Source: Pseudomonadota bacterium (GTDB lineage Bacteria > Pseudomonadota > Gammaproteobacteria > Burkholderiales > Thiobacillaceae). Taken from it: a stretch of 55,560 nt of DNA. Of the stretch, positions 30,340 through 32,928 are shown in pieces (position 1 is the stretch's first letter; the number at the start of each line of letters is the position of its first letter). The notes beneath the pieces are model-generated. The model was not told the DNA's origin. It was given only the letters and a program-made list of their open reading frames with translations, and did not search any database. The position numbers were made by a program, and so were the translations under genes. The stretch spans positions 1 through 55,560 of the forward strand of contig JAURYL010000092.1 in NCBI GenBank assembly GCA_030653935.1. The letters run 5' to 3'.

Positions 30340-32928
30340 TCAATCCTTTTCAGTCAGTTTCTGCATTGCAACCCAAGCCTGTCCCAGGCTCAAGCCCCCA
30401 TCGTTGGGCGGCGCCTGGCGGGCGGAGAGAACGGTGAAACCGCGCGCGACCAGCAACCGGGACAACTCGCGGGAAAGAATGTGATTCAGGAAACAGCCAC
30501 CACCCAGCGCGACCGTGGTGAGACCTTCACTGACGGCGGCGCGTTCCAGCCATTCCGCCAAACCCTGGGCCAATGTGGCATGGAACAGCGCGGCGCCGAA
30601 AGCGGCGTCTTTCTCGTCCGCCAGGCGGGCCAGAAGCGGTAGTAAATCGAGACGGCCGTCGTCATGCAACACGTAGCCGCCAGCCAGAGGCGCAACGCGA
30701 TCGGCCGCTTCTGCCAACCCCTCCAGCAGCATCGCCGCCTGGCCCTCGTAGGCCATGACCGCGCGCGCGCCGAGCAGGCCGGCCGCCGCGTCGAAACAGC
30801 GGCCGAGGCTGCTGGTCGGGGGGCAATTCAAGCCACGCTCCAATAGTTGCTGGAGTTGCGCCGCCGCCGGCTGGTCAGGAAAGCGCCGAGCGATCTCGTC
30901 GCCACGCCCCATCAAGTGAAGCGCCGCCGCCGCCATGCGCCAGGGTTGGCTGGCCGCCTTGTCGCCCCCCGGCAGGGGGATGGGCGCGAGATAGCCCAGG
31001 CGGGTGAAATTCGCGCCCTCCACGCACAGCAATTCGCCACCCCAGGCGCTACCGTCACTGCCGAGACCAACGCCATCCAGCGCCAACCCGAGGAGCGGCC
31101 CGGTAACCCCCTGCTCCGCCGCCACGGCGGCGATATGAGCATGGTGATGCTGCACGGCGACGCTAGGCACGGACCAGCGATCGGCCAGTTCCAGGGCATG
31201 GCGGCTGCTGAAGAAATCCGGATGCAGATCGTGCACAACGGCTTCCGGCCGGACTTGCAGGATGTCGAGCAGATGCCCCGCCACCTCGATCAACATGGCG
31301 CAGGTCGCCGGGTTGTCGAGGCCACCGATGTGCTGCGACACAAAAGCCTCGTCACCGCGCGTCACACAGATCGTGTTTTTCAGATAACCGCCCAGCGCCA
31401 GCACCGAGGGGCCGGAATGAGGCAAGCGGATGGCGCGCGGGGTGTAGCCGCGGGCGCGGCGGATGAATTGGGTAAACGGCGCAAATCCCCCCTGCCCCCC
31501 CTTTGGTAAAGGGGGGAACCCTTCGATTGAGCGCGGCGGGTTTGCTCCCCCCTTTTTTAAAGGGGGGCCGGGGTACCGAAGGGTAGGGGCTTCATCAGGG
31601 ATTTGTTCCACGCACCGCACCACCGAATCATCACAGCGCACCACAATGTCCCGGTCATGCAGCAGCACCGCGTCGGCGATACCGGCCAGACGCTCCCGCG
31701 CCTCGTCGTTGCCGATCACCAGCGGCTCGCCGCCGGGGTTGGCGCTGGTCATCACCAGCGCCAGGGTTTGCTGCTGCGCCATCCATGCCGTGCCGTCCGG
31801 CCGTCCGGCCGCTTCGTGGAACAGCAGCCAGTGAATCGGCGTGTAGGGCAGCATCACGCCCAACCAGGCCAGGCCGGGTGCGATGCCGGGAAAGAGCGCA
31901 TCGGCGCCAGGCTTCTTGCGCAACAGAACGATGGGCCGCTCCGGCGCTTGCAGCAGTTCGGCTTCTTCCGGGCTGATGTCCACCCAATCCGCAATGGACG
32001 CCAGATTGACCACCATCACCGCGAAGGGTTTTTCCTCGCGGTTCTTGCGCTCGCGCAGGCGTTGCACGGTGGCGGGATCGCGCGCATCGCACGCCAGGTG
32101 GAAACCGCCGAGGCCTTTGATGGCGACGATTTGGCCGGACTGGAAGCGGCTCAAGGTGTCGGCGATGGGGTCTTGCTGTAGCGCCGGCATCCTTGCCGGC
32201 GTCTTTTCAAACAGCCGGCTGGAAGCCGGCGCTACAAGGTCGCTCAGCCACAACCCCGGCCCGCACACCGCACATGCCGTCGGCTCCGCATGAAACCGCC
32301 GATCCGCCGGATCGCGGTATTCCCGCTCGCAATCCGGGCACAGCGGGAAGGCCGCCATGCTGGTCTGGGCGCGGTCGTAGGGGAGCTTGCGGGTCAGGGT
32401 GTAGCGCGGGCCGCAGTGGGTGCAGTTGATGAAGGCATAGCGCCAACGCCGGTCGGCCGGGTCGAACAATTCGGCCAGGCAGTCGGGGCAGACGGCGGTA
32501 TCAAAGCCGATCATGGTCGCGGCGGGTCCGGCGCCGCTTTCGAGGATGTCGAATGTGCTGAATTCCCCCGAGGCCGGCGCGTCCTTCCAGGTCAGGTCGC
32601 GCACCTGGGCGAGTGGTGGCAGTTCCTTCGGCAAACGCCGGGTGAAAGCCGCGATGGCCGCTTCGTCGCCGTCCAGCAATACTTCCACCCCGGCGGCATC
32701 GTTGCGCACCCAGCCGGCGAGCTTCAGTTCACTCGCCAGATGCCAGACCGTGGGGCGGAAGCCAACGCCCTGGACGATGCCGGTGACGCGGAGGCGGCGT
32801 TGAACATGCTGACTGTGTAGAAATCCCCCCTGTCCCCCCTTTGATAAAGGGGGGGACCCTCCGATTGAGCGCGGCGGGTTTTCTCCCCCCTTTTCCAAAG
32901 GGGGGCGGGGGGGGATTTCGCGACGCAT
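30340..32928 (-). CDS. hypF: Carbamoyltransferase HypF carrying three translated repeat insertions
   Basis: Makes the cyanide-ligand precursor by transferring a carbamoyl group to HypE. 862 residues against about 750 in E. coli. Domains in order: acylphosphatase (GIVQGVGFRP), four CxxC zinc motifs (CPDC, CTHC, CPDC, CAVC), YrdC domain, and Kae1-like domain (VQHHHAHIAAV). The excess comes from three palindromes read in frame: a type A element at the N-terminus (residues ~4-36), type C (~231-251) before the YrdC domain, and type A (~451-482) between YrdC and Kae1. No in-frame ATG lies between the N-terminal element and the acylphosphatase domain, so the ATG at 32928 is the best start. Confidence 0.93.
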   Translation of the reverse strand: MRREIPPRPPLEKGGENPPRSIGGSPPLSKGGQGGFLHSQHVQRRLRVTGIVQGVGFRPTVWHLASELKLAGWVRNDAAGVEVLLDGDEAAIAAFTRRLPKELPPLAQVRDLTWKDAPASGEFSTFDILESGAGPAATMIGFDTAVCPDCLAELFDPADRRWRYAFINCTHCGPRYTLTRKLPYDRAQTSMAAFPLCPDCEREYRDPADRRFHAEPTACAVCGPGLWLSDLVAPASSRLFEKTPARMPALQQDPIADTLSRFQSGQIVAIKGLGGFHLACDARDPATVQRLRERKNREEKPFAVMVVNLASIADWVDISPEEAELLQAPERPIVLLRKKPGADALFPGIAPGLAWLGVMLPYTPIHWLLFHEAAGRPDGTAWMAQQQTLALVMTSANPGGEPLVIGNDEARERLAGIADAVLLHDRDIVVRCDDSVVRCVEQIPDEAPTLRYPGPPLKKGGANPPRSIEGFPPLPKGGQGGFAPFTQFIRRARGYTPRAIRLPHSGPSVLALGGYLKNTICVTRGDEAFVSQHIGGLDNPATCAMLIEVAGHLLDILQVRPEAVVHDLHPDFFSSRHALELADRWSVPSVAVQHHHAHIAAVAAEQGVTGPLLGLALDGVGLGSDGSAWGGELLCVEGANFTRLGYLAPIPLPGGDKAASQPWRMAAAALHLMGRGDEIARRFPDQPAAAQLQQLLERGLNCPPTSSLGRCFDAAAGLLGARAVMAYEGQAAMLLEGLAEAADRVAPLAGGYVLHDDGRLDLLPLLARLADEKDAAFGAALFHATLAQGLAEWLERAAVSEGLTTVALGGGCFLNHILSRELSRLLVARGFTVLSARQAPPNDGGLSLGQAWVAMQKLTEKD
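31482..31574. repeat. Type A element inside hypF (YrdC-Kae1 linker)
   Basis: AAATCCCCCC arm, CCCCCCTTTGGTAAAGGGGGG and CCCCCCTTTTTTAAAGGGGGG hairpins. The right arm has lost GGGGATTT. Translated as PPLKKGG...PPLPKGGQGGF. Confidence 0.9.
32177..32236. repeat. Type C palindrome inside hypF
   Basis: TGTAGCGCCGGC / GCCGGCGCTACA ends with further inner complementarity, exactly 60 bases (20 codons), related to the palindrome after hypD. Confidence 0.85.
32821..32918. repeat. Type A element forming the HypF N-terminus
   Basis: Full 98-base copy lying between the hypB stop and the HypF acylphosphatase domain. It is translated from the ATG at 32928 as PPRPPLEKGG...PPLSKGGQGGF. Confidence 0.9.

Follow-up and report, generated by a model that had tools for sequence, protein, structure and literature searches.

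The window, by which we mean the whole 55,560-nucleotide stretch of DNA that was analysed, contains a hydrogenase cluster with two large and two small subunits, a HypX-like ORF, AIRS (HypE-like) and HybE, together with HupH_C, a maturation protease and regulators. On its minus strand lies hypF, and three repeat elements are read in frame within this gene.

30340..32928, minus strand: hypF, 862 aa, ATG start at 32928, stop at 30340-30342
32821..32918, minus strand: type A palindromic element, residues ~4-36, before the acylphosphatase domain
32545..32796, minus strand: acylphosphatase domain, residues 45-128 (Pfam)
32395..32493, minus strand: best zf-HYPF stretch, residues 146-178 (Pfam; a second stretch is present)
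32178..32238, minus strand: type C element, an inverted pair of GTAG-tagged hairpins (REPIN-like), residues 231-250, zinc-finger/YrdC linker
31606..32145, minus strand: YrdC domain, residues 262-441 (Pfam)
31483..31604, minus strand: longer type A element, residues 442-482, YrdC/Kae1 linker
30379..31413, minus strand: HypF_C and HypF_C_2 (Kae1-like), residues 506-605 and 614-850 (Pfam)

The identity of the protein is clear from the presence of acylphosphatase, zf-HYPF, YrdC and Kae1-like domains in a single chain (Pfam), and from the top Foldseek match of its model, 3VTH, whose TM-score is 0.94 when normalised to the target length and 0.82 when normalised to the query. The solved relatives are 3vth, 4g9i and 3tsq, and the nearest named HypFs are mostly betaproteobacterial. 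The AlphaFold2 model, for which the input was an alignment of 78 HypFs, has a mean pLDDT of 89.8, with a pLDDT of at least 90 at 718 of the 862 residues. Runs with pLDDT <50 occur only at residues 1-25, 27-33, 247-250 and 446-481; in the type C part, pLDDT averaged over ten residues comes to 68 and 50. Structure modelling was among the checks proposed by the first-pass annotation of this DNA, and the domain cores are intact in the model. Between YrdC and the Kae1-like part, 48 residues in this HypF align against 6 in 3vth.

The first-pass annotation had described two type A elements and one type C element read in frame at domain borders, two different repeat classes within one gene. The coordinates, reading frame and placement it gave are correct, and Pfam puts all three elements at borders. 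The extent of the second type A element combines 31483-31580 from the repeat search with a 24-nt tail counted by hand. This tail (8 codons by the same hand count; window 31581-31604, L051 and L050) lengthens some type A copies and leaves the frame unchanged; it is present in hypF and also in other type A copies of the relatives. The three elements together encode 94 residues. Removing them leaves 768 aa, compared with a median of 776 aa in 77 relatives, so that they cover the excess of the 862-residue protein that had been attributed to them.

Both elements are repeated in the same genome (G000; 3.8 Mb in 135 contigs). For the N-terminal type A element 93 matches are listed, and for type C 72, many places being counted on both strands in each case; the best other copies are 92% identical over 98 nt (E 1.3e-34) and 98% identical (E 2.9e-24) respectively. 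The exact type A arm pattern gives 94 hits in the genome and 0 with a reversed control.

Alignment with other HypFs, as the first-pass annotation had suggested, indicates that the segments were inserted and are not ancestral. The three stretches are filled to at least half in 6, 3 and 2 of the 77 named relatives, and several of the 23 relatives compared below have empty linkers. Long GC-rich hairpins may be misassembled, and the segments might in principle be assembly artefacts or ancestral sequence. Given that few aligned relatives fill these columns, and that three related assemblies (G000, G006 and G019) have repeats at all three sites, we find either explanation scarcely credible.

It is also conceivable that the N-terminal type A element is an untranslated leader lying upstream of a later HypF start, and the published account of intragenic REPs cautions that many N-terminal ones may be extragenic (PMC3733652). 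The frame is free of stops for 883 aa from stop to stop, and its start candidates are TTG at 32931 (a possible alternative start), ATG at 32928 and TTG at 32898, the last inside the element. There is no in-frame ATG, GTG or TTG between the element and the acylphosphatase domain in this HypF, and the hypF start region of G019 is arranged in the same way. A leader is thus improbable for this gene. In G006 two TTG codons lie downstream of the N-terminal element, so the element could be untranslated there.

Type C occurs as many dispersed copies in inverted dimers, most of the 72 listed matches covering nearly the whole of the 61-nt dimer. GTAG directly precedes 33 of the 72 hairpin matches, a count that includes both sides of each palindrome; the remaining contexts include 22 AAGA and 6 AAAA, which we interpret as the inner sides of these palindromes. 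A GTAG tag thus stands beside a short hairpin, as in GTAG REPs and REPINs, the latter being the dimer type of REP. As judged from its sequence, type C is a GTAG-tagged REP dimer, an inverted hairpin pair with GTAG on the outside. Type A comprises two CCCCCCTTTnnnAAAGGGGGG hairpins and a central loop. The possibility that it is also a GTAG REP was considered and dropped; only 7 of 72 arms are preceded by GTAG, and it is therefore not filed as such. A further GTAG-headed repeat, beginning GTAGGTTGGGC, is found in the window at 419-494, 33986-34061, 54751-54852 and 55435-55560, and one repeat of this type overlaps the start of the listed hypB ORF.

We compared this HypF with those of 23 relatives at the zinc-finger/YrdC linker (site 1) and the YrdC/Kae1 linker (site 2). 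Site 1 is occupied by type C in G000, G006 and G022, by type A in G019, G020, G030 and G016, by a further class, D, in G007 and by eye also in G012, G015 and G008, and by other GTAGCGC-headed palindromes in G011 and G005. The GTAGCGC head is common to type C and the G005 and G011 inserts. Site 2 has type A in several relatives, class D in G020 (by eye) and two copies in G016. In the G012 hypF (L037) it is filled by four full and one partial type A elements in tandem and in frame, adding 188 aa. The class D sequence of the G007 insert gives 54 matches in G007, 36 in G012, 63 in G015, 13 in G008 and 14 in G020, and is multi-copy in all five genomes searched. The G011 insert has 102 matches in G011 and 5 in G005. 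We had expected the site-2 insert of L007 to be a repeat, but it occurs as a single copy in G017.

The central loop of type A is reversed in G006 (L051) relative to G000, both at the N-terminus and at site 2. The flanks are near-identical at site 2 and the frame is kept (window 31483-31604 and 32821-32918 compared with L051). This arrangement could have come about by inversion, by gene conversion or by separate insertion, and the loop is a possible invertible coding segment.

The inserts were placed on a HypF tree based on 739 core columns of an alignment of 38 sequences (12 of 35 inner branches starred, 10 under 80). States were set by eye for the 24 rows comprising this HypF and the 23 relatives; the other 14 rows were coded 'none' although inserts occur in some (e.g. 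L045 near site 1), and low-complexity inserts (e.g. L005, L007, L008, L015 and L048) were also coded 'none'. The fewest state changes required are 11 at site 1, 6 at site 2 and 8 at the N-terminus. When the GTAGCGC-headed repeats are merged site 1 requires 9 changes, and 8 if two weak D calls are also omitted; site 2 requires 5 when two weak A calls are omitted. Presence or absence alone requires 5, 5 and 6 changes at site 1, site 2 and the N-terminus respectively. In the alignment of 78 HypFs, 20 of the 32 internal inserts of at least 8 aa, not all of which are repeats, fall in the two linkers, which account for 43 of the 750 internal core columns. Counting a further site at residue 439, which falls within YrdC by three residues, raises the number to 22. 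The calculated enrichment (P 1.7e-17) assumes independence of HypF rows that are in fact related, so the P value is far too small and is indicative only.

The stronger proposal of the first-pass annotation, that insertions are tolerated only between domains, fails as a rule. A Sideroxydans HypF (L068) has palindromic inserts of 51 aa inside YrdC and 29 aa inside the Kae1-like part, and the genome studied here has in-frame repeats inside Cas1, Tex, Hydantoinase_B, an Fe4S4 domain of a NasA-like protein and DUF3418 of an HrpA-like helicase. (The names HypX, NasA-like and HrpA-like are those we presume from domain make-up.) We took 65 stretches around listed copies, plus the window, giving 123 element intervals, some of them counted twice where stretches overlap. 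Pfam was run on HypF and 30 candidate ORFs, of which 15 were without a Pfam family. In six of the 15 with a family the element lies solely ahead of the first domain, and these were left unscored; nine have internal elements. SMC and 6-phosphogluconolactonase were set aside from these, leaving seven that were scored together with HypF. The second zf-HYPF and first NasA Fe4S4 stretches were placed by hand, and Cas1 was given a probability of 0. Six of the 11 scored internal insertions lie between Pfam domains (two in HypF, and one each in the HypX-like ORF, a penicillin-binding protein, a hydantoinase and the NasA-like protein) and five inside, where 1.98 would be expected between domains (P 0.0046). 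The first hydantoinase insert is doubtful, because the start of Hydant_A_C is unmatched and the insert may lie within it. P rises to 0.027 if this insert is recoded, and to 0.045 if the two in-domain cases (SMC and 6-phosphogluconolactonase) are also counted. Repeat insertions are enriched at domain borders, with tolerated places inside domains too. Two further type A copies in the window are read in frame, one between two domain matches and the other ahead of a domain.

42266..42363, minus strand: type A in the HypX-like ORF 41412-43229, residues 289-322, in frame, separating the formyltransferase match from the enoyl-CoA hydratase match
45307..45421, minus strand: type A before the HybE domain, in frame, in ORF 44814-45623

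In-frame repeat peptides are also present in other enzymes of the genome, including Cas1, hydantoinase, the NasA-like and HrpA-like proteins and 6-phosphogluconolactonase (L146, L158, L181, L194 and L195).

Every type A interval of the window falls in a single stretch.

28276..52456, no strand assigned: stretch with every type A interval of the window (repeat search and arm pattern)

Of the 94 exact type A arms of G000, 19 lie in window 28001-53000, where 0.62 would be expected, and there are 0 in 1-28000. Similar concentrations are found in relatives, with 17 of 26 arms within 20 kb around hypF in G012 (C16:42408-62566; five of these are the tandem copies in hypF), 12 of 43 within 14 kb in G020 (C1:63037-77283), 27 of 212 in 32 kb in G019 (C17:20000-52000) and, by hand count, 16 of 116 within 17 kb in G016. 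In G006 three of 132 arms lie on the 9.4-kb hypF contig (0.32 expected, P 0.004); the borders of the dense regions were drawn after the hits were known, so that P values overstate the case. In the relatives the regions are anchored on hypF alone, the hydrogenase cluster having been read in the window only. In several species, then, type A is concentrated at the hypF locus, which extends the published picture; REP arrays surrounding a cluster of genes are already on record for Thauera. Tandem arrays of type A arms also occur, with a unit of ~122-123 bp, comprising about two units at window 52218-52456 and roughly a dozen in G019 (L053:5731-7355).

We consider it most probable, at roughly 85%, that two dispersed mobile palindrome families inserted into hypF, and that copies in frame between modules survived selection. 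Type C is of a kind thought to be moved by a RAYT, an IS200-like tyrosine transposase, and a RAYT presumably moved it here; type A is an untagged hairpin pair that is very dense around the hypF locus. An insert would survive if it kept the frame, brought in no stop and landed between folded modules. Translation would then yield proline-, glycine- and lysine-rich disordered peptides together with a working enzyme, and HypF is presumably translated through its elements and functional. Selection would remove other insertions, with the local abundance of type A as a contributing factor, and there would be no single target-specific event. Because relatives have different repeat classes at the same linkers, it is most likely such removal, rather than one target-specific event, that produced the linker pattern. 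Filtering of insertions by tolerance, which the first-pass annotation had proposed, gains support from this reuse by different classes and from the share of internal inserts found in the two linkers. The linkers of HypF look like recurrent safe landing sites for repeats.

The same pattern could arise from insertion bias instead of selection, if the transposases favour a motif or structure in the linkers, or existing REPs. The concentration of type A around hypF in several genomes is consistent with this, as are the tandem type A copies at one linker in the G012 HypF and the restriction of part of the site-1 recurrence to one broad GTAGCGC-headed group. Moreover, L010 at site 1 resembles type C with further sequence inside, and so nesting may occur. 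Against such a bias, three clearly different classes (A, GTAGCGC-headed REPs and D) are present at site 1 and two (A and D) at site 2, which makes a shared target preference unlikely, and in other enzymes the same repeats are found in different sequence contexts. We regard target preference as unlikely overall, and as deserving more weight than the other alternatives. A different possibility is that the peptides tune HypF through linker length, mobility or contact with HypE, and are retained as useful. The filling of all three sites in G000, G006 and G019, and the recurrence, would agree with an adaptive role. Yet the class of repeat, its length (up to the 188 extra residues at one linker) and the orientation of the loop all vary, several relatives have no linker insert, and no peptide is conserved across classes. 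Adaptive linkers are decidedly improbable.

That survival of tolerated in-frame insertions should occur is not in itself new. In-frame REPs and the neutrality of linkers have already been published in the account of Di Nocera et al. (2013, PMC3733652), which describes intragenic GTAG/CGTC REPs as palindromes read in frame that add 20 to 30 aa. More than half of these are dimers or groups, some genes are hit twice, and different REPs occur at about the same recB site in two Xanthomonas (PMC3733652). They share in-frame palindromes with hypF and are a closer precedent than the Rickettsia elements. The hypF case differs in having two classes in one gene, in the lack of the GTAG tag in type A, and in that different classes have refilled the same linkers among the members of one genus. 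The main text of PMC3733652 has no mention of HypF, hydrogenase, uracil or Thiobacillus, and of the papers listed by a search of the open-licence literature for HypF and palindromic repeats, none deals with this subject as judged from its title and the beginning of its abstract. Rickettsia palindromic elements of ~150 bp insert in frame in unrelated genes and give translational fusions (Ogata 2000, 2002, as cited in PMC10969869). The comparison with them drawn by the first-pass annotation holds for the outcome, in-frame insertion in protein genes; the host is a different bacterium, whose nearest named relatives include Thiobacillus. As an enzyme in which the same linkers have been filled repeatedly, and by different repeats, within a genus, HypF provides a replicated natural experiment on selfish DNA becoming protein, and the solved structures allow the inserts to be mapped.

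G000 has five Y1_Tnp hits. In one of them (L032:874-2430; G000:C113) a RAYT-like domain shares an open frame of 519 aa with a uracil-DNA glycosylase (UDG) domain, with Y1_Tnp at residues 211-286 and UDG at 357-503 (Pfam). This RAYT is bordered by GTAGCGCCGGC and GTAGCGCAGGC palindromes, which are GTAGCGC-headed. Within the UDG it separates the N-terminal motif from the catalytic domain and keeps the reading frame, and the arrangement is found as one open ORF in 8 of 23 genomes of the genus (relatives compared, L229-L235, L237 and L241-L244). In G000, G019, G022, G017, G005 and G012 it is full length in one stretch, with no stops; in G008 and G011 two matching pieces lie within one open ORF. 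In G006 the parts are on two contigs, and G009 has the front part. Among 399 genomes of the order, four, all from a single genus of another family, show 57-58% identity along most of the sequence, and two of these matches begin at residue 53 or 58. The common form is a UDG without RAYT. At E 1e-60, 260 of the 399 genomes match, mostly with UDG only among the matches listed, and in the second family's genus there are genomes in which the match is confined to the UDG part.

The RAYT domain is complete, with both its HUH and its Tyr motif. MPNHVH is present in all 12 ORFs holding the domain. The Y-x-x-x-NP motif was found in nine of them by script and is visible in the sequence of the other three. 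Upstream of the RAYT the ORFs retain the N-terminal motif of insert-free UDGs (L238-L240), an observation in favour of a single chain. For the RAYT part dN/dS is 0.06-0.17 (11 pairs from 7 genomes, several with dS >1), and in these 11 pairs dS is higher for the RAYT part than for the UDG part, so that their histories may differ. A complete REP transposase lies in frame in the linker of UDG under purifying selection, as a predicted fusion, and this is a second extension of the published picture. A search of the open-licence literature found no paper linking REP-associated tyrosine transposase with uracil-DNA glycosylase.

Type C resembles REPINs and REPtrons, the latter described in PMC3733652, in being a GTAG-tagged inverted dimer in a genome that also has a RAYT with GTAGCGC-headed palindromes. 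Unlike in REPtrons, that RAYT sits within a UDG ORF, and mobilisation of type C by it is putative. We suggest, tentatively and at somewhat less than even odds, that the interdomain linkers of multidomain enzymes are a standing habitat for REP-type mobile DNA, hosting the mover itself (RAYT in UDG) as well. If RAYT and UDG form one chain, the transposase would be produced solely as a component of a host repair enzyme, and its survival would be tied to an enzyme that the cell retains; its non-autonomous copies would meanwhile fill linkers such as those of HypF. A real fusion would provide a direct route for the persistence of a REP transposase, and might be relevant to the reported occurrence of REPs in genes for DNA repair. 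At the other four Y1_Tnp loci (L031 and L033-L035) none of four repeat heads was found within 1.5 kb on either side. In L052, a longer stretch around L031, type C lies ~4 kb away.
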